Shown piece after piece: positions 1 to 32,896 of a stretch of 32,896 nt of DNA. This stretch comes from a virus. Positions within the stretch are counted from its first letter, which is position 1; each line of letters starts with the position of its first letter. Position numbers and translations under genes: made by a program. The stretch covers positions 1-32,896 of IMG/VR virus record IMGVR_UViG_3300025128_000184; one strand, written 5' to 3'. The notes below the pieces were generated by a model, which saw only the letters and a list, made by a program, of their open reading frames with translations, had not been told where the DNA came from and made no database searches.

Positions 1-921
1 CCCTCTACTAATGCTTGGCGATTGTATTTTGTCCATTAGACTCTTACTACCCTCGTTACGACCTTGAGAACGAAGAATTTCTTTGATTTGGTCCTTATAT
101 AGCAGAAACATAGCCACGTCTGCAACATTGGCATGACTTGCCCAAATTTCTTTTGCCATATCTTTAGTAGCAAATCTATAAACCTCTTCTTTCTGTTTTT
201 TTGTAACTTTACCTCCCATGAATCTTTCCATATCTTTTAAGTGAGTTTGCAATCCTTTTCTTGCTTCACCTATTTTAGCTTCCTGCGCAGCTTTTGTTTC
301 TGTCATATTTTTTGACAGTTGTAGTTTTTGTGACTCAATTGCTTTTTTAATAGTTCTTTTTATCTCTCTACCTTTTATAGTAATTAAACCATTTCTAAGC
401 ATTTTATCTACCGTATCGTCTATTTCTGATTGTGATAACCCGTCAGCTTTTAGTTCTTCTATAACTAATTCTTTATTTGAATACGACAAATAATTTTCTA
501 ACGTATCTATTTCTGGACTAGTAACCTCTTCTGGTTTTGAATCTTCTTTTTTACCAAAAGCTTTTAAGGTTTGTCTTATCTCTTCTTTTGAAGCTCCTTC
601 TATTCCTAGTTCCTTAGCTATCTTATCCCAATCTAAATTTTCTTCAGGCTGTGATTCATTTGTAGATTCCCACTCGTATTCTTCTTGTGGTTCTTCTTCT
701 TTTAACTCTTCTTCTTTCTTTTCCCATTTCCATCCATCTTCATCTGTTACAGGTTCACCTTCATCATCTACTTCTGTTTCTAATTTTTCTTCTGTAGATG
801 TTCCAGCTACTTCACTGTCACCAGCAAATGCTAATGGATTAAAATCGTTTGAATTGTTTTCTTCTTTAGCAGTAGATTCTGATATTGCCTCGTCTACTAA
901 GCTTGATTTTTCTTCTGACAT
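1..921 (-). CDS. Acidic scaffold-like protein (3' end cut by window)
   Basis: Open frame of 307 codons running off the left edge with no stop, starting at an ATG at 921. The N-terminal 120 or so residues are very rich in Glu, Asp and Ser; the rest is a charged helical region (EIKRTIKKAIESQKLQLSKN and following) ending in a Gly/Ser/Arg-rich tail. It is the gene immediately downstream of the portal, where tailed phages usually carry the capsid scaffold or a head-assembly chaperone just before the major capsid gene. The composition fits a scaffolding protein, but no conserved domain is recognisable, so this is a position-and-composition call. It has its own Bacteroidota-type -7 box upstream (951-958). 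Confidence 0.6.
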   Translation of the reverse strand, partial: MSEEKSSLVDEAISESTAKEENNSNDFNPLAFAGDSEVAGTSTEEKLETEVDDEGEPVTDEDGWKWEKKEEELKEEEPQEEYEWESTNESQPEENLDWDKIAKELGIEGASKEEIRQTLKAFGKKEDSKPEEVTSPEIDTLENYLSYSNKELVIEELKADGLSQSEIDDTVDKMLRNGLITIKGREIKRTIKKAIESQKLQLSKNMTETKAAQEAKIGEARKGLQTHLKDMERFMGGKVTKKQKEEVYRFATKDMAKEIWASHANVADVAMFLLYKDQIKEILRSQGRNEGSKSLMDKIQSPSISRG

Positions 922-962: not shown

Positions 963-3251
963 TTATTTTGTTATCTTTTCTTTTGCTCTAACTTTATCCT
1001 CCATTGACGAAGCTTCTTCTCTAGAAAAAGAGCTTTTATCTTTTGGTGAACCTCCCTCTTTATTTAACTCATAGTCTGCTAATTTTTTTGCAAACTCAGC
1101 TTCTTCGGAGGCGTCGTGTATGTCTCTTTTGTCTTCTGACTGTATTTTAGCAACTTGTAGTCTTGATTCCGCTTGTATTTCTGCAACTTGTATTTTAGCT
1201 TCATTATCCATTTGTTTAAGTTGAGCTTCTTCTTCAAATTTAGCTTTTTCAGCTTCTTGTTGCATTTGCATTTGTTGCATAGCTTGTTGTTGTTGTTCGG
1301 CTGCTTGTTGTTTCATTTGTTCCATACCTTGTTCAAGTACTTTTTCTGCTTCTGTCATGGTATCAGCTTTTAATACTTTAAGTATATTTAATAAATCTAT
1401 ATTTCCTGATTGTAAAGCAGATTGAGCTAGTCCTTGTACCACTTGCTTCATAGCGTCATCTTTACCACTATCTCCAACATATACACCAAAATCTTGCAAA
1501 GCAACATCAGGCATTACATTTAGAAACTTATAAGCTCCGTCTCCTAATATCATAGCTGCTTTTTTACCTCCAGCCCAAGCTATCTTCATTATATTACAAA
1601 GTCTTTCTAATACTCTTTGTTTTACTTCGTTATGTGAATAAAACCAAGATTCTGTAATTGTTGAAGATTGAACTACACTTCTTTGTACATTTCCTACATA
1701 TTCATATTGGTCTACCGCTCCTTCTCTTTGTCTTGTTACTCCAGATATTTGACCAGCCATATCTTCTAACATAATCTTAAGATTAATTAACTGTTGTACA
1801 GATTGTGATAATGTAAAGTCAACTTGTTGAAATTGATTAAAACTACTCATTTGCCCTCCTTCATCTTTTGAGTTAATTGGTATAATACCATCAGTTTTTA
1901 AATGATACAATACAGTCTGCATATCCATTCCTACATTTGTTGGTATTTGTGACGTATCATATACTACAGCTTTACCTCCAGAACGAGCCATAGCTAGTTC
2001 AATTTGATATATTACAATATTATACAACATTTGTGTATTGTGTAATAAGTCAACCATAGATGTAACTTTTCCTGTTGTATTACCATATATACACCCAACA
2101 TAAGACAATGGAGTTTTTCCAGGATTATCTACAGACCTAACTTGATTGTCTCTTCTTTTACATTTTAATAATATTTTACCACCAATTTTAGTAGCTTCCC
2201 AAATATCATCCACCCATTTTATTTCTATTTCTTCTCCTTTTCTCTTTTTATATGTATCTTTTACCATTTTTCTAAACGGTCTGTCTGGGTCATATTTGTT
2301 TGGCGATACTTTAAATTTTATAGCTCTTAAAGATTTCCATTCTGCAGACACTATACGTATACGATTTTCTTTACCTCTTGAACTATCTATCCATGTAAAC
2401 TGACTGTTATAGTCGTCTAAATCTTGACCGTACAAATATCTCATTTGGTCTAAAATTAATAAATCGTCTTTTGTTAAGTATTCTTTATATTCATCAGCTA
2501 TTTCATTTACCGACATCCATCTTTCTTCTCCAACCCACGAAGCGTCATCTAAATAATCAGAATGTACACTTGCGTCATATATTATAGACCTTGGGTCTAC
2601 CCTACGCGCGTGCGGGTCTCCATCTATTATATCTATTTTATAAAACTCTTTTCCTGTCACTAATAAATCTCTAAAACCTTCCTTAAAAGAATCTTTTAAG
2701 TTATGTCTATTCATTACATACTCTAAACCATCTTGAGCAGTTTCCTCTACCATTTCTCTGTAGTTATATTTCATATATCTATCAATATCATCTGGTACAG
2801 GCATACCTTGTCCTTCGTCAGTTATAGGAGCTCCGTATTGTTTTTCAAAATCTTTATGTATATTATCTAACAAAGTTTTCATTTGTATAGATATCTTGTG
2901 GTCTAATTTTCTTATAACAGCTTCTTTATTAATAGTAGACACCTTCATATCTACTGGTCTTTTTAAATCTTCACCTACCAATAAGTCAATTTTTGGAGTA
3001 ATAATAGGATAATTAACTAATCTTGCAGGATATGTTAATCCATATTGTTCTGTAATATATATATAGTCATCTTGATTTATTTGTCCATTATATATTCCGT
3101 AATTCGCTATGTCTCTTGTTCTACTATCTTCATAAGGACTTTCTCCATAAGTCATATATCCAACGATTGATTTAAGTACCTGTTCGCACCATTCTTCGTT
3201 TTTTTCTTTTTCAGATACCATCATTGATGGAAAGTGAGTATAATTTGCCAT
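963..3251 (-). CDS. Portal protein, P22-like
   Basis: 762 aa. The portal forms the dodecameric ring at the capsid vertex through which DNA is packaged and where the tail attaches. The N-terminal and middle part have the look of P22-type podovirus portals (fixed-vertex motif region around YPARLVNYPIITPKIDLLVG, later LAMARSGGKAVVYDTSQIP and MLEDMAGQISGVTRQREGA), and the length fits that family (about 700-760 aa). The last 115 or so residues form a long Gln/Glu/Lys coiled coil (roughly residues 646-735), comparable to the C-terminal barrel/helical tail of P22-like portals. It directly follows the terminase gene with one base between them (TerL stop at 3253), the standard packaging-module order. 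Confidence 0.88.
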   Translation of the reverse strand: MANYTHFPSMMVSEKEKNEEWCEQVLKSIVGYMTYGESPYEDSRTRDIANYGIYNGQINQDDYIYITEQYGLTYPARLVNYPIITPKIDLLVGEDLKRPVDMKVSTINKEAVIRKLDHKISIQMKTLLDNIHKDFEKQYGAPITDEGQGMPVPDDIDRYMKYNYREMVEETAQDGLEYVMNRHNLKDSFKEGFRDLLVTGKEFYKIDIIDGDPHARRVDPRSIIYDASVHSDYLDDASWVGEERWMSVNEIADEYKEYLTKDDLLILDQMRYLYGQDLDDYNSQFTWIDSSRGKENRIRIVSAEWKSLRAIKFKVSPNKYDPDRPFRKMVKDTYKKRKGEEIEIKWVDDIWEATKIGGKILLKCKRRDNQVRSVDNPGKTPLSYVGCIYGNTTGKVTSMVDLLHNTQMLYNIVIYQIELAMARSGGKAVVYDTSQIPTNVGMDMQTVLYHLKTDGIIPINSKDEGGQMSSFNQFQQVDFTLSQSVQQLINLKIMLEDMAGQISGVTRQREGAVDQYEYVGNVQRSVVQSSTITESWFYSHNEVKQRVLERLCNIMKIAWAGGKKAAMILGDGAYKFLNVMPDVALQDFGVYVGDSGKDDAMKQVVQGLAQSALQSGNIDLLNILKVLKADTMTEAEKVLEQGMEQMKQQAAEQQQQAMQQMQMQQEAEKAKFEEEAQLKQMDNEAKIQVAEIQAESRLQVAKIQSEDKRDIHDASEEAEFAKKLADYELNKEGGSPKDKSSFSREEASSMEDKVRAKEKITK

Positions 3252-3252
3252 T

Positions 3253-5073
3253 TTAATTTATTTTTATTGGTGTGCCATTTATGCCACGTTTATAATATTT
3301 CAGTCCTATATCTAATACATCTTGTTTTTCTTGTACTCTCATTCTATAATTATCTATATTATGAATTAAACAAATACCAAAAGCCATAGCTCGGTCAGTA
3401 TTTCTTAAACCATAATTAGCTAATTCATCTATTAAATCCATAAACCATATATCTCTTACATGCTCCCTAATATAGTCATCAATAAGGTCTTCTAATAAAG
3501 CTTTTACTTGCTTATTCATGTGAACTCCATATTGGTTTCTAGTTTTAGAGCCTGGATTATGAGCAGATTCTGGTTTTTCTTTTAAATATTTTAGAGCGTT
3601 CATACGTTTAAAGTAATCTAAAATACCTATCTTTGTATATTCTACCAACATCTTTGAATTGTAGTATACAGCTAATTTTAAGCAACCGTCCCAAAAATCT
3701 TCTTTTTTCTTAGGTCTATCAGTATATTCTGCTACAACATAATCACTCGCTATATCTGTATTTGCAAATCTACGATAAATTATCGCACTTCCCAAGGATT
3801 CTGACGCTCCTGCTTCGTCTTGGTCATAAGAATCCACTCCTCCTATGTCAATTCCATTATATTCTGGCATTGGATGTGATAAAATTTTATATGGTCCAGC
3901 AGGATGTGGTTTCCAAGAAACTTTTAAATCATGCTCTTCGCCCAACACCCAATCTAAGTATCCACGCTGTATTTGATTCTTATAATCTTTACTTGATAAT
4001 ATTCTACTTCTTTGAGCGTTTAGCAAAGCAATATCAAATCTACTTTCTTTAGTATTTAAGAACGCTTCTTCTATAGTTAAAGGATAATTTTGTATATGTA
4101 AGTTATACGCTTCGTTATCTCCTGATTTTCTTATTGTTTCTCTTTCTGTAGTTAATTCTTCTTTCGCTCCTTCAACGTCTTCCACTCCTGTGTTAATATC
4201 AAAGAATCCATAGTAAGCTTTTGACGCAGGTATAAACATAGGTATAAGATTATAGGCGTCATTACTGTAATACATATCCATAAAATCTTTAGAAGCTTTT
4301 GATATATCACCTCCAGTACCTCCAATTATAGGAACTCCAAATTGTACATTACCATCCATAAAACAAGCTTTAGATGACATGTATGCGTTTTTTAAATGCT
4401 TAAACTCTCCCGCTTCTTCAAATATCATTAATGATAGACGTTCTCCTTTGAACACCTCTGGGTTATCCATAGTTCTACATATAATTGTAGATTGGTAACC
4501 ACCAATTTCCCACTTACCGTCTTTGTTTTTTTGTTTGTAACCTGAACGTAATATACCATCTGTATCTTTTAATACTGAATGTTTGAAGTTAGGATGAATA
4601 CCATTCAATCCTTTTTTAGTTTTATCAAAAAATGCATCAGCTGTAGCTTGTAGTCCAGCCGCTACACCTATATCGTTATATGGAAAAAACGTATATTCAT
4701 GAGCTACCATACCAGAGTTCATATAAGAAAATCCTTTATCTCTGGCTTTAATTACTATCATACCCTTTTCTTCTTCTTTACAGGTTTCATAAAGGTTAAA
4801 ATACTCTCTATCCATTTCTCTATACCAAGGATGTATTAAAGATTTTCTTCCTCCCTTTTCTCCACTATTACCTAATATATAGTAGAAATTTAAATAGAAA
4901 TAATATTTCCCAGATATTTTAGGCATACCTTTTGGTTTAAATCCATTTATACATCTTTCTTGTTGTTCGCTCCACCACTCTTGATAAGCTACAGAACTTT
5001 CGTCTAAGTCTGGAAATCCTTTATTAGGAATCGGTCTATATTTTTGTGGGTCAAACTTTATCTTACTACCCAT
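3253..5073 (-). CDS. terL: Terminase large subunit (packaging ATPase-nuclease)
   Basis: 606 aa. It pumps DNA into the prohead and cuts concatemers. The ATPase part shows a Walker A-like KARDKGFSY at about 109-117 (the degenerate form common in terminases) and a Walker B LSLMIFEEAGE at about 213-223 with the catalytic Glu pair. The C-terminal RNase H-like nuclease has the expected acidic triad: D409 in NGIDIGG, E478 in MLVEYTKIG and D560 in NTDRAMAFG. Length is typical. The start overlaps the end of the preceding 97-aa gene by 8 nt, and the portal follows at once, so the three are translated from one message. Confidence 0.93.
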   Translation of the reverse strand: MGSKIKFDPQKYRPIPNKGFPDLDESSVAYQEWWSEQQERCINGFKPKGMPKISGKYYFYLNFYYILGNSGEKGGRKSLIHPWYREMDREYFNLYETCKEEEKGMIVIKARDKGFSYMNSGMVAHEYTFFPYNDIGVAAGLQATADAFFDKTKKGLNGIHPNFKHSVLKDTDGILRSGYKQKNKDGKWEIGGYQSTIICRTMDNPEVFKGERLSLMIFEEAGEFKHLKNAYMSSKACFMDGNVQFGVPIIGGTGGDISKASKDFMDMYYSNDAYNLIPMFIPASKAYYGFFDINTGVEDVEGAKEELTTERETIRKSGDNEAYNLHIQNYPLTIEEAFLNTKESRFDIALLNAQRSRILSSKDYKNQIQRGYLDWVLGEEHDLKVSWKPHPAGPYKILSHPMPEYNGIDIGGVDSYDQDEAGASESLGSAIIYRRFANTDIASDYVVAEYTDRPKKKEDFWDGCLKLAVYYNSKMLVEYTKIGILDYFKRMNALKYLKEKPESAHNPGSKTRNQYGVHMNKQVKALLEDLIDDYIREHVRDIWFMDLIDELANYGLRNTDRAMAFGICLIHNIDNYRMRVQEKQDVLDIGLKYYKRGINGTPIKIN

Positions 5074-6315: not shown

Positions 6316-8739
6316 TTAATACATGTCTTCTGGACCCAACGGTGTTTTTGTATATGGTATAGATATGTTGTCTTGATACATATATGGTGGATTGGTTGTT
6401 GGGGTATTTATTTGTGGTAAATTAGAAGGATTAATTACCTCACCCATGTCTGGTAAAATAGGATAATTTTCCTGTATCTTGCCGTAAATATTTTGTATCG
6501 CTGGCATTGTTTTGTCAAATATATCTTGATATGGATTTCCTGTTTGTACAAAACCATCCATTGGTGTCATTCCTTGTGTCGGTAAATCCGTTACTGGCTG
6601 TCTATTTTCAGTCATTGGTTGAACTGGAACTGTAGGTTGAGGATTATCTAAACCTAGTAAATTAGGATTTTCTGTCATATATTGGTCATAAGACATTGTT
6701 GGATTTAATCTACTATAATTCTCCATGTTACTAATTCTTTCGGCAAATTGATATCCTGGTTTTTCTGTTTCTGATTTTAAATATTCCTGATATTTTTGAT
6801 ATGAAGGTAAAATAGTTGCTTTCGCTGGTAATTGAGCGGGTTCAGTTGATATTTCTTTGATGTTTTCAAATTCTATAGGCTCTGTGAATGGATGAAAGAA
6901 TCTTTCTTCTTCTTTACTATAATGACTAGGATTCATATTAATCATAAGTGTTCCTGAAACCTCGTCTGGCGTTGACATGTTTTGAAATTGCTGTAAGTGA
7001 ATATTATAATGCGTTTGATTTGTTTTATTTAATTTTGATGATATATCTTCTCCTTCTTCGTTAAATGATACATGAAAATGGTCTTTTTCATCAAAAACTT
7101 TTACTTCAAAATCTTTTATAAATTGAGATGCTTGTTTATTTTTTCCACTTTTTCCGTCTCTTAACCAGTCTGAAAAATCTCCAACAAAATCAGCTGCAGC
7201 TCCGTCCATATGTCTACTAGTTAAATTGTGAAACTCATCTCTACTTATTTCTCCATTTATAAATCTATTTTCTTGCTCTGTTAACCAATTAACGATTTCT
7301 TGTTCTGCTTCCTCGCTTTTCCATCCATATTGTTTAGTACTATCAGAAACTATCTTTTGCAATTCTTTAGAATAGTGATGCATTGTACTTTTCTTATATT
7401 TTCTCATGGTTTCCCATTGAGTTTGTGGAGTTCTTCTACCACTTGTCATATAAATTTCTCCTTCATATCCATAATATCTAGCCATAGATAATGACAAATA
7501 AACATCTTTATTTACTTGAGTGTGTCTTAAGTCTATATTTGACATTCTTGGAAAAGAACCTTTTTGTTGAGATAAATACCGTTCAGAATAAGGAATGTAC
7601 TCTTCATCACCGTCAACTACTCCCCCGTTATCGTAAGTTTTTTTTTTAAACATACCCCCTTTTCTGTATGTAGTTAATTTTTCTTCTCCTAAATAAGGGT
7701 CACCAGTTGGTTGGTTTTGTTCTGTCATCACTGGACCCGAAGGGTCCGATTTTGTTTCAGTGGTCGTGGGACTCCCTAAAAACTCATTGCTGAGTTTCTT
7801 ATATTCATTTTCATAACTATCATCTCCACCTAAAAGTATTTTAGTAACATAATCACCTGTTTCTGTATTTAACCCCTCCATCCAATCTAAAGAATTATAA
7901 ATATCAACTCCTTTTGCTTTTTGTTTGTTTAGATAATTTACTAAACCTGTAGGCCCCATATTGTAAGCGGCTAAAGCTTTTGCTTGTTTTACTTTATCTG
8001 TACCTTTATTCCAACTTCTTGACATTAGGTCGTTCATAAGATTTTCTTGAAACTGTTGAGCTAATTTTGGATTAGTAACCAAGTCACCATATTTTGTACC
8101 TTCAGGTACGTATCCTTTTTTTAGACCGTCTTTAAATGCGTCAGGCATAATTTGAGCCATACTTGTAGCTCCTGCTGGACTTACAGCATCTGATTTAAAT
8201 CTAGACTCTTGAAATAATTGTCTTAATAATATTTCTTCAAAAGACCTAGGGTCTTCAGGCATTGTACCACCATTATCCATAGACATAACTCTAGGGTTAA
8301 TAAGTTCGTGAGCATATTGTGATGTATCACTACCATAAGGAGTAAGTCCTTTATAACCTGGACCACTACCCCCTCCCGTTTGAGATGTTGTACCCCCTGG
8401 TAATCCTCCGTCTAATAATCCACCACCACCTATCATAGTAGCTGTATATGGATTAAAAGCTCCATACCCTGGGTCAAAACCCCCACTAGTGTGTGCTTGC
8501 ATAAGTTCATGACCCGTAGGGTCGGAAACATTAAATTGTGGTTTACCCATATAAGGGTTATCTGTACTACCAAGATTTATTTGCTTTATTGGAGGATTGG
8601 TACCTTTAATATGATTGTATACACGTCCCGTTACTCTTCTACCACCTGCAGCATATCTTTTTAATTTTGAACTAGCAATTACAGCTGGCACATGCTTAAA
8701 ATTACCTATCATATCCATCATATCTCTATAACTTCCCAT
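6316..8739 (-). CDS. Bifunctional virion murein hydrolase: lytic transglycosylase plus M15-like peptidase
   Basis: 807 aa from the ATG at 8739; a longer frame from a GTG at 8775 is possible but would overlap the upstream gene by 50 nt and lacks the A-rich leader seen before the ATG. Residues about 165-310 form an SLT/goose-lysozyme-like domain with catalytic Glu178 in FQESRF, GATSMAQIMP and AAYNMGP. Residues about 410-575 resemble a peptidase M15 domain: SRHMDGAAADF gives H510 and D517 (H-x6-D), and DHFHV gives H554 and H556 (HxH), the zinc set. The N-terminus is Gly-rich and the C-terminal 230 residues are Pro/Thr/Gln-rich. The phage would use it to open peptidoglycan, both glycan and peptide bonds, during DNA entry. 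No signal peptide, so probably carried in the virion. Confidence 0.82.
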   Translation of the reverse strand: MGSYRDMMDMIGNFKHVPAVIASSKLKRYAAGGRRVTGRVYNHIKGTNPPIKQINLGSTDNPYMGKPQFNVSDPTGHELMQAHTSGGFDPGYGAFNPYTATMIGGGGLLDGGLPGGTTSQTGGGSGPGYKGLTPYGSDTSQYAHELINPRVMSMDNGGTMPEDPRSFEEILLRQLFQESRFKSDAVSPAGATSMAQIMPDAFKDGLKKGYVPEGTKYGDLVTNPKLAQQFQENLMNDLMSRSWNKGTDKVKQAKALAAYNMGPTGLVNYLNKQKAKGVDIYNSLDWMEGLNTETGDYVTKILLGGDDSYENEYKKLSNEFLGSPTTTETKSDPSGPVMTEQNQPTGDPYLGEEKLTTYRKGGMFKKKTYDNGGVVDGDEEYIPYSERYLSQQKGSFPRMSNIDLRHTQVNKDVYLSLSMARYYGYEGEIYMTSGRRTPQTQWETMRKYKKSTMHHYSKELQKIVSDSTKQYGWKSEEAEQEIVNWLTEQENRFINGEISRDEFHNLTSRHMDGAAADFVGDFSDWLRDGKSGKNKQASQFIKDFEVKVFDEKDHFHVSFNEEGEDISSKLNKTNQTHYNIHLQQFQNMSTPDEVSGTLMINMNPSHYSKEEERFFHPFTEPIEFENIKEISTEPAQLPAKATILPSYQKYQEYLKSETEKPGYQFAERISNMENYSRLNPTMSYDQYMTENPNLLGLDNPQPTVPVQPMTENRQPVTDLPTQGMTPMDGFVQTGNPYQDIFDKTMPAIQNIYGKIQENYPILPDMGEVINPSNLPQINTPTTNPPYMYQDNISIPYTKTPLGPEDMY

Positions 8740-8929
8740 AATTTTTTGAGTTTTTATCGTTATACTTACCACCACCCATATAGTTCATGGTGTTCTTTAT
8801 ACTTTTTTGTTTTGTCTCTTGTTGTAACCTACCTCTCTCCATTTTAGCTATTTCAGCTTTTTCTTGAAGTTCTGAGTTTCTTCTCATCCACTCTAGTCTC
8901 TCTTGTAAATCTTCTGGTATATTTGACAT
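8726..8929 (-). CDS. Small coiled-coil protein upstream of murein hydrolase
   Basis: 67 aa. The first 45 residues are a highly charged helix (MSNIPEDLQERLEWMRRNSE and following); the tail contains NYMGGGKYNDK, one of the Y/M-x2-GG elements recurring in this cluster. It overlaps the hydrolase ATG by 14 nt. Its start follows the TAATTATG junction also used by the next gene upstream. Function unknown; a minor virion component is plausible from position. Confidence 0.68.
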   Translation of the reverse strand: MSNIPEDLQERLEWMRRNSELQEKAEIAKMERGRLQQETKQKSIKNTMNYMGGGKYNDKNSKNYGKL

Positions 8930-8931
8930 AA

Positions 8932-9171
8932 TTAATTGTGTTGTGAAAACCTACCTCCAGAGTTATAACCTTTGGATTTAGATTTCTTTTTTCCTTTTGA
9001 GTAAGAACCTATAGGTCTATACAATTCTGTTATTCCTTGTAATAAATGAGGTTTTCCTTCATCTGTATTATACCACCAACCTGTTTCAGTTATTTTATAT
9101 TTATTAGCCGCGTCTATTTTTTTTTGTCTTTTTTGTGCGGACGTTAACTTTTTTTTCTTTTTATCAGCCAT
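8932..9171 (-). CDS. Small basic protein with C-terminal GGRFSQHN
   Basis: 79 aa, with a Lys-rich N-terminus (MADKKKKKLTSAQKRQKKID), a central aromatic part (TGWWYNTDEGKPHLLQGI) and a Lys/Ser/Gly tail ending YNSGGRFSQHN. The ending closely resembles that of the next gene upstream (YGHGGRLPQHD). No known family. The high positive charge suggests nucleic-acid contact, perhaps a packaged or head-internal protein, by inference only. Confidence 0.66.
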   Translation of the reverse strand: MADKKKKKLTSAQKRQKKIDAANKYKITETGWWYNTDEGKPHLLQGITELYRPIGSYSKGKKKSKSKGYNSGGRFSQHN

Positions 9172-9173
9172 AA

Positions 9174-9344
9174 TTAATCGTGTTGTGGAAGTCTTCCTCC
9201 GTGACCATACTTCATTTTCATACCACCCATAGCCTTGTTTTTATTACCCATCATTTTAAAATCAATACCTGAAAGTTTTCCGTCTTTATTTTTATCAAGT
9301 TTTACCTGACCACCTTTTAAATACCTTTTTTTCTTTTTATACAT
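9174..9344 (-). CDS. 56-aa protein with EF-hand-like calcium loop
   Basis: Starts MYKKKKRYLKGGQVKLD and ends GGRLPQHD. The segment DKNKDGKLSGID matches an EF-hand/dockerin loop: Asp or Asn at positions 1, 3 and 5, Gly at 6, a hydrophobic residue at 8 and Asp at 12. After it come FKMMGNKNKAMGGMKMKYG. Very short phage proteins with one such loop exist; whether it binds calcium is not shown. It is the first gene of the leftward late block, 27 nt downstream of a TATCTTTG box, and its stop is followed by the TAATTATG junction leading into the 79-aa gene. Confidence 0.68.
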   Translation of the reverse strand: MYKKKKRYLKGGQVKLDKNKDGKLSGIDFKMMGNKNKAMGGMKMKYGHGGRLPQHD

Positions 9345-17976: not shown

Positions 17977-18415
17977 AGAACTACCATATAAATGGAGAGT
18001 TCAATCAGCTAGGTATGGTAAAGCTGCTTGTGTAGCTTACATAGACGCTAGAGACGCTCAAGACTTATTAGATGAGGTTGTAGGACCTAGTAAATGGTCT
18101 ACAGAATACTACGAATCATGTGGATTATTGATGTGTCGTGTTGGTATACACACAGAACATGGTTGGGTATGGAAATCAGATACTGGTTCCGAATCTAATG
18201 TAGAAAAACAAAAGGGACATGCATCAGACGCATTTAAACGTGCGTGTGTATCGTGGGGTATAGGTAGATTTTTATATAGACTACCAATACAAACCCTTAA
18301 AACTAAGGAATATAAAGGTAAAGAATATCCTTATGCACCAGAAAAAGATAAGATTATCTTTGATGGCGAAACTTTAACAAAATATATAAACTGGAAAATT
18401 AAAAACAATAAATAA
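17954..18415 (+). CDS. Rad52/22-type single-strand annealing protein
   Basis: 153 aa. The N-terminal Rad52 core is recognisable: LPYKWRVQSARYGKAACVAY, DAQDLLDEVVGPSKWSTEYY, GWVWKSDTGSESNVEKQKGH and ASDAFKRACVSWGIGRFLYR, where the ASDAFKRA-x-xxxGIGRFLY element is diagnostic of the family. It anneals complementary single strands during phage recombination and repair. It is followed by an SSB-like gene (stop/start overlap TAATG) and, further on, a RusA resolvase and an exonuclease, forming a recombination set. Confidence 0.9.
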   Translation: MNLRELTKELPYKWRVQSARYGKAACVAYIDARDAQDLLDEVVGPSKWSTEYYESCGLLMCRVGIHTEHGWVWKSDTGSESNVEKQKGHASDAFKRACVSWGIGRFLYRLPIQTLKTKEYKGKEYPYAPEKDKIIFDGETLTKYINWKIKNNK

Positions 18416-18993
18416 TGAAAGTATTACCATTTGACTTAAACACAACATCTTCTAAACCAGAAGGTAAACAAGAGTATTTAAAACCTGGGGCTCACCACTG
18501 TAAAGTTGTAAGTATAACAACATCTGATTTAATAGACAACTACAAAGGCTCACCATTTATTACATTTAATGTAACAAGTAATAACAAAAACGGTAGAGTA
18601 CAAATGTGGGCAGTTAAACAAACTGACAAACCTTCAACACAAGATTGGAAGAAAAAACAAATGAAAGACTTCTTAGTCAACGCAGGTGTGTCTGATTTCT
18701 CTGACGATTCTAAAGCTATGAATGATGTTATAGGTAAAGACTTAATGATAACATTTATATCAGAAGAGTATGTTACGGTTAACAGAGAAACAGGAGAACC
18801 AGTAATTAGAGAAGCTGTTAAATATAGATGGAGTAATAAAGCGGGAGCAAACTGTGCTTATAGTCCAGATATGAATAAAAAACTATCAAATGAAGATAGA
18901 GACAAATACAAAGTAATGATGAAAGATTATCAAGGAACATCAGCTTCTGTAGAAAACGCTGACGGTATGACAGACGAAGATATGCCGTTCTAA
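18415..18993 (+). CDS. Single-stranded DNA-binding protein with SSB-type acidic tip
   Basis: 192 aa. The middle is a beta-rich, OB-fold-compatible domain (GAHHCKVVSITTSDLIDNYK, FITFNVTSNNKNGRVQMWAV, DLMITFISEEYVTVN). It ends TDEDMPF, almost the same as the conserved C-terminal tip of bacterial SSB (DDDIPF), which recruits partner enzymes. I infer that it coats ssDNA and recruits host or phage recombination and replication proteins. Immediately behind the Rad52-type gene. Confidence 0.8.
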   Translation: MKVLPFDLNTTSSKPEGKQEYLKPGAHHCKVVSITTSDLIDNYKGSPFITFNVTSNNKNGRVQMWAVKQTDKPSTQDWKKKQMKDFLVNAGVSDFSDDSKAMNDVIGKDLMITFISEEYVTVNRETGEPVIREAVKYRWSNKAGANCAYSPDMNKKLSNEDRDKYKVMMKDYQGTSASVENADGMTDEDMPF

Positions 18994-21711: not shown

Positions 21712-21876
21712 ATGGAAATAACATTATCAATATTTACATACGCGATAGGATTTGTTTCAGGAATGTATGTGTTATCACAACTAGAAAGTGGGATAAAATC
21801 TAGAATAAGAAACAATGAAACATTAAAGAACTTAAAGAAATACGATAAAAAAAATGATAATTCACAAAGTAAATAG
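21712..21876 (+). CDS. 54-aa single-pass membrane protein
   Basis: MEITLSIFTYAIGFVSGMYV is a hydrophobic N-terminal helix, followed by a charged Lys/Asn-rich tail (SRIRNNETLKNLKKYDKKND). Begins 1 nt after the DUF3310 stop and overlaps the radical SAM gene by 23 nt. Function unknown. Confidence 0.6.
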   Translation: MEITLSIFTYAIGFVSGMYVLSQLESGIKSRIRNNETLKNLKKYDKKNDNSQSK

Positions 21877-22711
21877 AAAAACATTTACTATAAGACCCTC
21901 TGGGAGGAGTACAGATTTTATTTCTCCTAGTTTTGGACACGGTTGTTTATACAACTGCTCTTATTGTTATATGAAACGCAATAAACCTTACGGCCTTAGT
22001 ATAGCAAAAAACACAGAAGATATACTTACTAGCATAAATAATCATGTAACTTTTGACGATACAATTAAACCAAATCAAACACACCCAGAATACATAACGT
22101 ATGATATAAGTTGTAATGAAGACTTTGCTTTACACGCTAAACATCATGAGTGGGAGAAAATATTTACATTTTTTAAAGACCATCCTAAAGCTATGGGTAG
22201 TTTTGCTACTAAGTATGTAAATCCTGAATTAATTAAATTTGACCCTAAAGGTAAAATACGTATACGATTTAGTTTAATACCACAACATAAGGCAGATATA
22301 CACGAACCACACACATCTAAAATTATAGACAGAATAAAAGCAATTGACGCTTTTATAGATTCTGGTTACGATGTTCATGTAAACTTTAGTCCTGTAATAG
22401 TATATGACGGATGGTTAAATGATTATAGGTTTTTGTTTAATATGTTAAATGATTATGTAGATTATAAAAACCAAGTCTTAGCAGAAGTTATATTTCTTAC
22501 ACATAATTTTAAAAGACATAAGTTTAATTTAACTAGTAATCCTGAATCAGAAAAAGACTTGTGGGTTCCGCATATACAAGAAGATAAAATATCACAATAT
22601 GGTGGTGTTAACACAAGATATAATCATAAGCTAAAACGTGAGTATATAAATCAATTTATAGATTTACACAATAGTATTATACCTTGGAACACAATAAGAT
22701 ATATATTTTAA
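21854..22711 (+). CDS. Radical SAM protein of the spore photoproduct lyase (SPL) type
   Basis: 285 aa. GHGCLYNCSYCYMKR gives a CxxxCxxC [4Fe-4S]/SAM site (C31, C35, C38), preceded by SPSFG as in SPL-family proteins. C87 in YDISCNEDFALH lies where SPL has its hydrogen-donor Cys (SCTSD motif), though the alignment is by eye. Later segments SFATKYVNPELIKF, KIRIRFSLIP and VHVNFSPVIVYDGW fit the partial TIM barrel. It may repair UV thymine lesions or carry out another radical reaction on DNA; spores are not relevant in this host group. Located just before a DNA methylase. Confidence 0.8.
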   Translation: MIIHKVNRKTFTIRPSGRSTDFISPSFGHGCLYNCSYCYMKRNKPYGLSIAKNTEDILTSINNHVTFDDTIKPNQTHPEYITYDISCNEDFALHAKHHEWEKIFTFFKDHPKAMGSFATKYVNPELIKFDPKGKIRIRFSLIPQHKADIHEPHTSKIIDRIKAIDAFIDSGYDVHVNFSPVIVYDGWLNDYRFLFNMLNDYVDYKNQVLAEVIFLTHNFKRHKFNLTSNPESEKDLWVPHIQEDKISQYGGVNTRYNHKLKREYINQFIDLHNSIIPWNTIRYIF

Positions 22712-22725
22712 TAAAATAAATAAAT

Positions 22726-23544
22726 ATGATTAGTTATATAGGAGGTAAAAGCCGAATGGCTAAATGGATATCAGAATATATCCCAAAAGATATAGAATCC
22801 TACACAGAAGTGTTTGGAGGAGCTTTCTGGGTATATATTAAAAGTGATGTACATACATTACCAAAATTAAAAAAAGTCGTTTATAATGACGTAAATAGGT
22901 TTATGGTTAATTTGTTCCAATGTTGTACAGAGCCATATTTCTTTAATAAACATATGGAAGAATCTGAAATCAAATCACAAAATGAAAAACTATTTTATGA
23001 ATATCAAGAAGAAATAAAAAATACTTGTGATATAGGTTTTAATGACTATTCATTTGACATGGCTATGAAATACGCTTACATAGCTACACAGGTATTTAGT
23101 GGTAGTAAAATTATGGAGTCTAAATATATAGACCTTAAAGGTAAATATAATTCAAAATTTGATGCGTTTAGAAAAAGATTGATGAATCCTGATGTTATAC
23201 AAAAATTGCACAAAATTACTAACTGTGAAAATTTAGATTATACAGAATGTATTTCTAAATATGATGGAGTAGAAAGTTTCTTTTATGTAGACCCACCATA
23301 TTGGAAAACTGAAAATTATTATTCTAATCATGACTTTGATTCATTAGACCATGATACATTAGCTAAATGGTTACAGAATATAAGAGGTAGGTTTGCACTA
23401 TCTTATTATTATTTTGAAGAACTAGAACATATGTATCCTAGAAAAGATTTCCGATGGGTGAGTAAAGAGTTTACAAAAGCTGCTGGAGCACAAAAAGGAA
23501 AGAAACAGAATAAAGGAGAAGAACTATTAATAATGAATTACTAA
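22726..23544 (+). CDS. DNA adenine methyltransferase, Dam/D12 class
   Basis: 272 aa. N-terminal SAM site MISYIGGKSRMAKWISEYIP (the F-x-G-x-K-type motif of D12 enzymes), TEVFGGAFWVYI, VVYNDVNRFMVNLFQ (the NDxN motif) and the catalytic motif FFYVDPPYWKTENYY (DPPY, N6-adenine). Length normal. It probably methylates adenines in phage DNA, for protection against host restriction or replication timing. Target sequence cannot be read from the protein. No cognate endonuclease gene is seen. Confidence 0.9.
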   Translation: MISYIGGKSRMAKWISEYIPKDIESYTEVFGGAFWVYIKSDVHTLPKLKKVVYNDVNRFMVNLFQCCTEPYFFNKHMEESEIKSQNEKLFYEYQEEIKNTCDIGFNDYSFDMAMKYAYIATQVFSGSKIMESKYIDLKGKYNSKFDAFRKRLMNPDVIQKLHKITNCENLDYTECISKYDGVESFFYVDPPYWKTENYYSNHDFDSLDHDTLAKWLQNIRGRFALSYYYFEELEHMYPRKDFRWVSKEFTKAAGAQKGKKQNKGEELLIMNY

Positions 23545-29508: not shown

Positions 29509-30542
29509 TATCTTATTATATAGTTAATACCTAATTTAAAATTGTACCATTCTCTATTCCAATACTTATTGTATTTTCCTTCTACAAACACACCTAGTTG
29601 TTTGTTTAGTTTTTTACCAAATATAGTTCCTCCTGAATAATCATACCATTGCCCTCCTATAAAATTATGATAAGCGTATTCGTTACCATTGTCATAATGA
29701 TACGGCATTAAATTACCCCAAGAATGTAGCCAAAAATCTTTTTTATAATAATAATAGTCAAATCCCACTACTAAAGAATAATTCCAAATTCTATCTAATT
29801 CATTTCTTTTTCTTTCTGTGTAATCTGACAATACTTTTGGTATTACTATTTGTTCCCATACATCAGAAGATACAGCTACCAAATTTCCATCTGCGTTATA
29901 ATACATTTGATGATATACATCTACATTATATCCTTCCTGTAACGCTAAGTAAGTGTAGTGTATATTACCATTATCTAATTTCCATTCTTCTAATGGGTCA
30001 TATCCATAAGGTTCAGCTATTCTTTGTACAGCTCCTATATTAAACGATAGTTTGTTGTTATAGTTATATCTATACCTTTGAGAACCTTCAAAGTAATCTA
30101 CATCAGCAAATCCATCTTTTAGATACTCTACCTTAGCGTTCCAATTATTTCCCACATATCTAATAAAATGATGTTGGTCTAAATATTCTACACCCTCTTG
30201 TCTTTTGTAATTAGCTTCAAACAAAAACTCTAATCCTTTTATTTTTCCTATTGTTGCCGCGTCACTATAATTAGATTCGGTACCATCATAAAAAGTATTA
30301 GCTTTATTTTCATATCCAAATCTAGCTATTTTTCTAACACCTAAAGTTATATTGTAATCATAAGGAGTTTGTATCGTAGTAGTTGTCAATCCATCTGTCA
30401 CAGAGAAAACATCTACATCTGATATAGACGTTCCTCCATTTATAGCTCCGTAAAAAGTAGAAAATTTAAAATATTTTTTTATATCAATTTCTTGTGATAT
30501 GGAAAATAGAGGTAATAAAAGTAATATTATTATTTTTTTCAT
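29508..30542 (-). CDS. Putative outer-membrane beta-barrel protein with Sec signal peptide
   Basis: 344 aa. The signal peptide is clear (MKKIIILLLLPLFSISQ, cleavage after ISQ). The mature part is rich in Tyr, Trp, Asn and alternating strands (YNITLGVRKIARFGYENKAN; EFLFEANYKRQEG; YSLVVGFDYYYYKKDFWLHS; LGVFVEGKYNKYWNREWYNF) and ends KLGINYIIR, a typical barrel C-terminus. It should insert into the host outer membrane. It is coupled to the 780-aa secreted protein (4-nt overlap), so the two may act together. Not recognised as PorP/SprF or any named porin. Confidence 0.68.
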   Translation of the reverse strand: MKKIIILLLLPLFSISQEIDIKKYFKFSTFYGAINGGTSISDVDVFSVTDGLTTTTIQTPYDYNITLGVRKIARFGYENKANTFYDGTESNYSDAATIGKIKGLEFLFEANYKRQEGVEYLDQHHFIRYVGNNWNAKVEYLKDGFADVDYFEGSQRYRYNYNNKLSFNIGAVQRIAEPYGYDPLEEWKLDNGNIHYTYLALQEGYNVDVYHQMYYNADGNLVAVSSDVWEQIVIPKVLSDYTERKRNELDRIWNYSLVVGFDYYYYKKDFWLHSWGNLMPYHYDNGNEYAYHNFIGGQWYDYSGGTIFGKKLNKQLGVFVEGKYNKYWNREWYNFKLGINYIIR

Positions 30543-32881
30543 CTTACAATTTTCTTTTCTACTGTTCCGTCATCATATATAAAAAACAGCATTTTATTTT
30601 TTTCTATTTTAGCTGGCCTACCCAATATATCTGTAATCATTAATAAGTTTGCTATACGTTTTGGTAAAGGTCCTACCCATGTTCCCTCACAATAATCATA
30701 AGTTAATTGACATATGTTATCCCAATCGTTTTCACAACAATATTCGTCTACATCAATTACCCAAGCGTAGCACGGGTCATTTAACCAATATGGTACACCT
30801 GGTCCTGTTATACATCCAGCGTCATAGAAACATGAGTCTTCTATATTGACATTAGCTAATTCATTATACGAGTACGCATCTTGGTCCATACATCCTTCAA
30901 CCACAGATATACACGAGCCATTATCAGTATTAGCTGTTGAATCATAATTAAAGGCAGCACTATCCATACAACCGTAAATATAAGGAATACAGCTAAAGTC
31001 TTCGGTATTAGCTTGTGGGTTAAAATTAAGCATACTAGGGTCAGTACAACCGTAAATATAAGGAGTGCAACTATTATTGTCTGCATTGGCTAAAGGATTA
31101 AAGTTAAACATTGTAGAGTCCATACACCCATAAACAAAAGGCTCGCAACTTCCATTATCTATATTAGCTATAGGATTGTAATTAAACATTGTAACATCCA
31201 TACACCCATAAACTATATCTACACAAGAACTATCATCAACATTTGCGCTAGGAGAATAATTAAAAGCTGTACTGTCTGTGCATCCATAAATTGGTAATAC
31301 ACAAGAACCGTCATCAGTGTTAGCTGTAGAATCGTAATTTAACGATACAGGATTCATACACCCCTCAATAATAGGAACACATGTAGAATCGTCTACATTT
31401 GCATTAGGATTGTAATTAAAAGCTAAAGGATTAGTACATCCATACACTATAGTTATACAAGAACCTGGTATTTCTACATTAGCTGAAGGATTATAATTTA
31501 ACGATGTACTATCCATACATCCTAATACTATTAAAGTTTGACATGTGCCATCATCATAATCTGCTGTAGAATCATATTCTATATATAAAGGATTCATGCA
31601 TCCAGGATTATAATAACAACTTCCATCGTCAGTATTAACAGAATCTATATAATTAACAGCTGTAGAATCTATACATCCATATGTTTTTTCTTCACACGTA
31701 TTACCGCAATTTGTTATTATTTGATATGGTAATAAAGGTTGTATAAATGGTGGTTGTATACTAATTAAAGTATCTCCTTCTGGGTTTATGAATGTAAATC
31801 CACACTCTATTGTAGTTAAACTAGCTTGCGATGATATATGAAATCTAAATGTTATTGGGTCTGGAGCTGTTAGTCCTACATAATAAATATCCTCAAAACC
31901 TCCTGTATGTGTAAATTCATATAATGTATCTGGATGTATTAGTTTTAAATGTGACCCAACCCACCCATTGCCCATTAAATCGTGCAATACAAGGGTATAA
32001 ACACAAGTGTCTATTAACTCCATAGTGTTAGCTGTACTATCATAATTATACATAGACGTATCAATACATCCAAATATTTTTAATGTTTGACAACTTCCAT
32101 CATCTATATCTGCAAAAGGATTCCATTCTACATAGTCATCATCTGTACACCCTAATATAGGTGGGCATGAATCAGAAACAAAAACATGTGCTGAGTCATT
32201 ACCGAAAGCTGGGTCTGTACCATATACTAATGTATCATTACACTGTTTAACAAAATAAGAACCATCTTGTCCTTGCCATAACCCTCCGTTTAAACCATCT
32301 CCGTATGAATCATATATAGTAAATGTTAAATCTCCTTTAGGTATTTGAACTGGGATAACTACTGTAGCGTAATCAGGCTGTGAGTTGTAGTTTCCTCCTG
32401 AAGCATAAATTATCCCATTTGTGTCTTTTATATCCCAAGATGTCTCACTTTGGTATTGGTCTAAGTTTATAATAACTTTAGCTGGAACTAATTGAACTGG
32501 TGGAGGTTGAGGCATACATTGCGGAACCACTCTATTATGTATTAATCCTGAGTTAAATGTACTTACAGGATAATTTATTATTGTATCTCCACATATACTA
32601 ACATAATATTCTCCATTAGTTATACCATCACCATAACTATCAAACATAACAAAAGATATATTAGTTATACTATCTGGAATATACACGGTATCAATATTCA
32701 TTATATTAGACGAATCATAGTATCCATAAGGAACATGATGTAATGTATCTCCCTGATAAACAGAATCATATAATACCCATTTAGTTTCACTAGGATACGA
32801 ATCTGTTTGTATATTTATAATAACTTCTTTTTGAGCAAAAGTTATTATAGGTAATAGTAATATTAGTAATATTTTTTTCAT
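30539..32881 (-). CDS. Large secreted repeat protein with type IX secretion C-terminal domain
   Basis: 780 aa. Signal peptide MKKILLILLLPIITFAQ, a Bacteroidota-type Sec signal. Residues about 20-330 contain three related beta domains marked by FVMFDSYGDGI (about 78-88), FTIYDSYGDGL (187-197) and LVLHDLMGNGW (297-307). Residues 244-684 hold 13 copies of a repeat GC-(T/M/I)-(D/N)...NY.P.AN.DDGSC. Residues about 704-732 form a CYAW...CCENDWDNIC cluster. The end, LLMITDILGRPAKIE followed by LFFIYDDGTVEKKIVR, is a type IX secretion sorting domain. All parts are known from secreted flavobacterial proteins; it would be exported and shown on the host surface. Confidence 0.85.
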   Translation of the reverse strand: MKKILLILLLPIITFAQKEVIINIQTDSYPSETKWVLYDSVYQGDTLHHVPYGYYDSSNIMNIDTVYIPDSITNISFVMFDSYGDGITNGEYYVSICGDTIINYPVSTFNSGLIHNRVVPQCMPQPPPVQLVPAKVIINLDQYQSETSWDIKDTNGIIYASGGNYNSQPDYATVVIPVQIPKGDLTFTIYDSYGDGLNGGLWQGQDGSYFVKQCNDTLVYGTDPAFGNDSAHVFVSDSCPPILGCTDDDYVEWNPFADIDDGSCQTLKIFGCIDTSMYNYDSTANTMELIDTCVYTLVLHDLMGNGWVGSHLKLIHPDTLYEFTHTGGFEDIYYVGLTAPDPITFRFHISSQASLTTIECGFTFINPEGDTLISIQPPFIQPLLPYQIITNCGNTCEEKTYGCIDSTAVNYIDSVNTDDGSCYYNPGCMNPLYIEYDSTADYDDGTCQTLIVLGCMDSTSLNYNPSANVEIPGSCITIVYGCTNPLAFNYNPNANVDDSTCVPIIEGCMNPVSLNYDSTANTDDGSCVLPIYGCTDSTAFNYSPSANVDDSSCVDIVYGCMDVTMFNYNPIANIDNGSCEPFVYGCMDSTMFNFNPLANADNNSCTPYIYGCTDPSMLNFNPQANTEDFSCIPYIYGCMDSAAFNYDSTANTDNGSCISVVEGCMDQDAYSYNELANVNIEDSCFYDAGCITGPGVPYWLNDPCYAWVIDVDEYCCENDWDNICQLTYDYCEGTWVGPLPKRIANLLMITDILGRPAKIEKNKMLFFIYDDGTVEKKIVR
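30830..32152 (-). repeat. 13 tandem Cys repeats inside the secreted protein
   Basis: Residues 244-684 of the 780-aa protein: units of about 21 residues beginning GC(T/M/I)(D/N) and ending DDGSC or a variant, separated by 3-6-residue linkers. Copies 3-13 (residues about 402-684) are nearly contiguous; copies 1 and 2 are separated from them by a beta domain. Two Cys per unit and the Asp-rich end suggest disulphide-stabilised, metal-binding modules. Sequence drift between copies argues for old duplications. Confidence 0.88.
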
Positions 32882-32896
32882 TAGTCGTGTTGTGGT
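32881..32896 (-). CDS. Last codons of an upstream gene ending PQHD
   Basis: The right edge encodes ...PQHD then TAA on the minus strand, with the stop overlapping the ATG of the 780-aa gene (TAATG). Only four residues are visible. They match the ending of the 56-aa gene at 9174-9344 (PQHD) and nearly that at 8932-9171 (SQHN). Confidence 0.5.

Follow-up and report, generated by a model that had tools for sequence, protein, structure and literature searches.

The window, by which we mean the whole stretch of DNA that was analysed, comprises 32,896 bases of one virus (IMG/VR record IMGVR_UViG_3300025128_000184). Its ORFs are mechanical, uncurated calls, and spurious short ORFs count in the denominators given below. 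On the minus strand we found genes for a portal (963-3251), for a large terminase (3253-5073, assigned by a PHROG match), which serves as the marker of the phage clade described here, and for an 819-aa protein with a transglycosylase (6316-8775). The portal gene is followed by a gene for an acidic protein that is truncated by the left edge of the window (1-921, minus strand); its homologues are also encoded after a portal gene, and most of them end in FDPKAFM[SGNR]E.

Upstream of the transglycosylase-bearing ORF lie two small, abutting minus-strand ORFs whose products share a C-terminal ending. The ORF at 9174-9344 encodes a small basic protein of 56 aa with an EF-hand-like loop and the C-terminal end KYGHGGRLPQHD, in which the tail GGRLPQHD is encoded at 9177-9200. 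The ORF at 8932-9171 encodes a lysine-rich protein of 79 aa with the end YNSGGRFSQHN (tail GGRFSQHN at 8935-8958); a single relative of this protein was found, and it was a singleton when proteins were clustered by their bodies. The 56-aa protein and its relatives (L003-L082) carry the motif KGGQVKLDxNKDGK(I/L)xxxDFKM, a single EF-hand-like or dockerin-like loop, to which Pfam EF-hand models give sub-threshold matches only. Small-protein relatives of it occur in many marine phages (138 found, 80 of 138 kept).

A third tagged gene reaches into the window with its 3' end only (32881-32896, minus strand; PQHD and stop), the remainder being cut off by the right edge. The related copy of the junction sequence that had been noted there (32879-32894) indeed reads PQHD followed by a stop. 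We followed the gene beyond the edge in a relative (L171; it belongs to a 55.5-kb record identical to the right end of the window at 2999 of 3000 bases), where it is complete at 7504-7662 and encodes 52 aa ending in GGKIKLRPQHD. In the body clustering this protein belongs to a different family from the 56-aa and 79-aa proteins and groups with the third tagged protein of two other loci (L004/L091), which matches phrog_25774. Its stop overlaps the ATG of ORF 30539-32881 (minus strand). The 780-aa product of that ORF begins much like a signal peptide and contains numerous GCMDSTAFNYNPxANVDDGSC-type cysteine repeats, and searches of PHROG and NCBIfam gave no match to it. A type IX secretion sorting domain, suspected on this protein, was dropped since NCBIfam gave no match. 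Elsewhere in the window a spore photoproduct lyase-family radical SAM protein (21854-22711, plus strand) adjoins a Dam-like adenine methyltransferase (22726-23544, plus strand), both scoring under the NCBIfam cut-offs.

The initial annotation had pointed to a repeated sequence at the two neighbouring minus-strand junctions, and the repeat is present exactly there, at 8927-8945 (tail codons, stop and ATG of ORF 8726-8929) and at 9169-9187 (tail codons, stop and ATG of ORF 8932-9171). Both copies read CACAACAC[A/G]ATTAATTATG, 19 bases with one difference. Judged from the DNA of the window by itself the repeat is weakly above chance: the core CACAACACRA, allowing at most one mismatch, occurs seven times against 2.9 +/- 1.7 expected, a number reached in 2 of 100 shuffles. 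The stop-start part, TAATTATG, is an ordinary junction in the window, with 12 copies, five of them at plus-strand ORF starts. It is because relatives carry the ending widely, and not from the statistics of the window DNA, that we regard the ending as beyond chance. The ending (P/S)QH(D/N) described earlier is thus real, but it was drawn too short, as the unit that is shared is the peptide GG[R/K]...[P/S]QH[D/N].

A C-terminal peptide on small basic proteins

A search of relatives for proteins with PQHD-type C-termini, which had been suggested as a check, recovered eight clusters and further singletons. In these relatives variable linkers lead into a tag of Q, then H or L (rarely Y, K, F or N) and finally D (rarely N, S, A, G or V). 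When the tagged ORFs were clustered by their bodies, with the last 10 residues removed, the small basic proteins fell into eight clusters of 22, 17, 13, 13, 10, 7, 3 and 2 members plus singletons; four clusters of antisense ORFs, two of terminase ends and two of portal ends, together with spurious singletons, matched the loose expression as well and were excluded from this number. The proteins had been called unrelated-looking, and their bodies do fall into separate clusters that have no detectable similarity to each other, except that two of the eight families (GLYANI and GLYYNI) may be distant relatives. Among the tagged families are DUF6321, DUF5872, the DACYH domain (part of phrog_727) and the EF-hand-like protein. 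No defence families were found among seven tagged proteins. In the DACYH alignment the body is nearly invariant, the linker varies by up to 18 residues and lacks the GG in two rows, and all 10 of the 10 rows keep the terminal QHD unchanged. DUF6321 proteins of untagged phages end at the W-x-C that closes the core or at most 6 residues beyond it, whereas those of tagged phages continue for 10-21 extra residues after W-x-C and end in Q-x-[D/S/N/A].

In an AlphaFold2 model of the DUF6321 protein the blocks of the core reach pLDDT values of about 73-85, and most of residues 94-112 lie below 50; the DUF5872 model has a pLDDT below 50 at its four C-terminal residues. Because of these low values the tails look flexible and are predicted to be disordered. 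Fold comparison of both models with solved structures gave no usable match. A larger protein of the clade, with a variable body, ends in [YF]TxGG[RK][FI], which resembles the GG portion of the tag but lacks Q-x-D (L104 7100-8098 and L105 672-1514; also in L117, L127, L141, L146, L155 and L163).

Two readings of the shared ending had been offered, a C-terminal tag or a mobile element for translational coupling to the following gene, with the expectation that relatives in which one of peptide and nucleotides stays while the other changes would decide between them. In 86 rows, pre-filtered to basic ORFs with G-containing tails, it is the peptide that stays. QLD-stop is written in 11 different DNA spellings in 35 rows and QHD-stop in six spellings in 37 rows; TAA, TAG and TGA are all found as the stop codon, and the downstream bases range from an overlapping start to no start in the 12 bases examined. 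The first two genes of the cluster in one locus (L004), which are neighbours, both encode GGRLPQHD with four synonymous codon differences. Among 37 rows with QHD tails, 31 spell the histidine CAC, whereas long ORFs (>250 aa) use this codon 35% of the time, an excess that perhaps reflects shared ancestry or a constraint on the nucleotides around the stop. Since the peptide is constant while codons, stops and downstream bases vary, the ending is a peptide tag and not a DNA or translation element. The coupling element is contradicted by these data, and the shared ending is well supported as a C-terminal peptide tag conserved across relatives.

The tag is largely confined to one kind of protein within the tagged genomes. 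In ten records of the tagged clade with 797 ORFs, the ending Q[HLYKFN][DNSAGV] was found on 37 of 98 small basic ORFs but on only 2 of 699 other ORFs (Fisher test, p ~1e-34, with ORFs that are not independent). The tag is absent from the other 61 small basic ORFs, of which some are neighbours of tagged ones in the same cluster. Within the last six positions of 790 ORFs the strongest residue pairing is that of Q at -3 with D at -1, seen 33 times against 6.4 expected. The terminal residue is not always D, as N, S, A, G and V occur and QHR and QHK were seen once each; an EF-like protein in G030 ends in QHR. Co-variation of residue -2 inside genomes was not found at a convincing level (35 of 81 pairs alike against 29.4 in shuffles, p = 0.06). 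Tagged genes may lie far apart in a single genome, near 13, 54 and 63 kb in one record (G036) and at 14-18 and 36 kb in another (G008), so that they do not stem from one duplicated stretch.

The C-terminal tip of SSB is acidic, ends in PF and is a docking tip. The scan for residue pairings also ranked a PF ending, mostly on SSB-like proteins, and this may be taken as a fair positive control. Endings of the type [D/E]-x-PF or similar recur on proteins of 190-195 aa in several of the ten records. In the window a 192-aa protein (18415-18993, plus strand) ends in TDEDMPF, which resembles the acidic SSB tip.

Distribution among phage lineages

In the loci that we examined tagging is all-or-none per phage. 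We ran profiles of six families, with the last 18 residues removed, on the ORFs of each locus, omitted ORFs longer than 350 aa and counted identical family-and-tail profiles once. Two or more of the six families were present in 135 distinct loci, which are not independent of each other; 37 of these loci were fully tagged, 96 untagged and two mixed, and each mixed case came from an isolated Q at -3 (RRRLQHG, VTQYR). Other tails of this kind were sought in untagged marine phages; the candidate, a DACYH ending ARGCG...RRKxT, was rejected, as two such proteins occurred together in 0 of 238 loci.

The tag state goes along with the terminase. We compared 100 records. A terminase match was obtained for 16 of the 28 tagged and for 54 of the 72 untagged ones, which left 12 and 18, respectively, without; 'untagged' refers to the sequenced stretch examined, and the 30 records that gave no match may be fragments. 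All 16 tagged records with a match have a terminase 68-89% identical to that of the window, whereas every one of the 54 untagged records with a match shows at most 33% identity. Viewed from the terminase, 39 of the 80 closest loci of the clade contain a tagged ORF, defined here by a terminal QH(x) or [PRK]Qx[ND], and none was seen in 41, many of which are short fragments; several long loci among the 41 lack these genes altogether. Untagged members of the profiled families were not found in these 80 loci.

On a tree of the DUF6321 domain, built after removal of the tails, the 18 tagged rows among 80 lie scattered and ask for seven changes of state, at least five of which are forced by well-supported branches; the alignment behind the tree has few columns, and many forks are open. 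In all 27 rows of known terminase type (27 of the 80) the tag state agrees with that type. Among independent pairs the agreement is 4 of 4, which with four pairs only amounts to p = 0.125. From the terminase match and the scatter on the domain tree we conclude that the tag follows the phage and not the protein.

In a phage collection 203 records matched the terminase of the window, all below 60% identity; the best 40 of the 203 lie at 26-33% and belong to gut crAss-like and related phages and to phages of Cellulophaga and Flavobacterium. No relatives at 60% identity or more were found in cultured phages, and none in bacterial genome contigs. Upstream of position 9344 there is a TAnnTTTG motif, which we take to be a Bacteroidota promoter element. 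The terminase relatives and this motif together suggest a Bacteroidota host, and the tagged clade probably consists of marine phages infecting Bacteroidota.

Possible functions and known systems

As the likeliest function, though no more than an even bet with a probability of about 0.5, we propose that the ending, Q-[H/L]-D on a flexible linker often with GG[R/K], is a C-terminal capsid-cargo signal. One clade of marine phages attaches this tag to a changing set of small basic proteins, whose free C-terminus would dock on one clade-specific partner such as a scaffold, the capsid interior or the portal. Docking would load the tagged proteins into the procapsid during assembly, and the basic bodies would remain with the DNA in the particle and might possibly be injected at infection, as are the internal proteins of T4. 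Judged from its charge and gene order, the acidic protein encoded at 1-921 is a candidate scaffold and a candidate partner of the tag.

The virion location of relatives in cyanophages bears on this proposal. In phage S-SCSM1 the third gene before terL encodes a protein of 517 aa, SSCSM1_29, that is annotated as 'virion protein' and unites DACYH (210-250) and DUF6321 (437-517) in one chain; the paper on this phage reports 45 virion proteins by mass spectrometry (PMC9602691). S-CREM2 gp137 contains DUF6321 at 407-490, and in the published virion proteome of this phage it is listed with 4 unique peptides, 4.1% coverage of the whole protein (PMC10665884). Both proteins are without the tag, so that location in the virion does not generally require it. 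The two domains are fused in cyanophages and separate with a shared tail here, as would be expected if the tail co-localises them.

Only a little less probable, in our view, is that Q-x-D acts as a modular virion address. By this reading of the sequences, a domain captured from other phages, such as DUF6321, would gain a tail and become capsid cargo, and from the tail one could compute which proteins of the clade are packaged and perhaps injected.

An alternative that we regard as rather unlikely, yet as one to be weighed seriously, is that the tag docks its proteins on a common partner in the infected cell, for example a replication, transcription or host take-over complex, and that no packaging is involved. 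The varied spellings, the linkers and the all-or-none pattern speak for a shared docking end and fit this equally well, and SSB-like proteins of the same genomes have a conserved D/E-x-PF C-terminus that is such a docking tip. Many loci, however, place the tagged genes beside the terminase and other structural genes, and the cyanophage relatives are annotated or detected in virions. It is improbable that the ending is a signal for stability or processing, either recognised by a protease or protecting against one, through which cleavage or retention of these proteins would be coordinated. Signals of that sort typically sit as short C-terminal endings on unstructured tails, and the tag is of this kind, but its limitation to small basic proteins of one clade would be unexpected for a general host signal. 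We give very little credit to the view that the tails have no present function and were copied with the gene ends by recombination as inherited baggage; the common spelling of QHD tails in excess of codon usage and the many tagged genes that adjoin each other would suit it, while linkers that vary in front of an invariant end, many synonymous spellings and tagged genes at scattered genome positions argue against it. A mobile element at the nucleotide level, acting by translational coupling to the following gene, can practically be dismissed, as the likeness of the two window junctions over 19 bases with one difference, and of two similar junctions in L099, is outweighed by codons, stops and downstream bases that vary under a constant peptide and by TAATTATG being a common junction in the window.

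If the tail is indeed a loading signal for capsids, the packaged or injected proteins of an uncultured marine clade could be listed from sequence alone. Without a cultured virus one can usually not tell which small proteins a phage carries into a cell. Such a signal would also indicate where domains of unknown function such as DUF6321 and DUF5872 act in this clade, and it would offer a new, testable C-terminal peptide by which capsids are loaded with protein. Among the literature matches listed, in a search limited to open-licence papers, we found no description of the motif; for DUF6321 together with DUF5872 the matches listed among these papers comprised a single one, which deals with an algal virus.

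How does the tag compare with known systems? The capsid targeting sequence (CTS) of T4 is a short terminal peptide on IPI, IPII, IPIII and Alt, the bodies of which are diverse, often basic and variable between phages (PMC3012670, PMC9026906). The likeness lies in one short terminal peptide common to otherwise diverse, often basic proteins: diverse small basic proteins share the tag here, and a place in the head would be predicted for them from the cyanophage relatives. The sequence of T4, however, is N-terminal, about 10 residues long and removed by the prohead protease gp21, whereas the tag belongs to another phage clade, has another sequence and is C-terminal in every tagged family. A T4-type capsid targeting sequence is thus ruled out by the wrong protein end, and that the tag works alike is what we infer.

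The SSB tip is likewise a conserved free C-terminus, and that of SSB is used for docking. It differs in that the PF end sits mostly on one family of 190-195 aa whereas Q-x-D is found on many families; the tagged proteins end in Q-x-D in place of acidic residues and PF, which occur on other proteins. For crAss001, cargo proteins stored in capsid and tail have been described (PMC10172136), and its terminase group is distantly related to that of the clade, the terminase being the one Crassvirales core protein that was compared (best 40 of 203 matches at 26-33%, all below 60%). That cargo is large, however (gp45, gp46 and RNA polymerase parts), and the passages on it mention no shared terminal peptide.

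Encapsulins, finally, take up different cargo by short C-terminal cargo-loading peptides that dock inside an HK97-fold shell (PMC8346489). Those are cellular compartments, in operons with a shell gene, enzyme cargo and no packaging genes, whereas here we deal with a phage that has a terminase and a portal, with small basic tagged proteins, with another peptide sequence and with a docking step that we only propose. Nevertheless, the tag agrees with the encapsulin peptides in being a short C-terminal peptide that is carried behind a flexible linker by different proteins.
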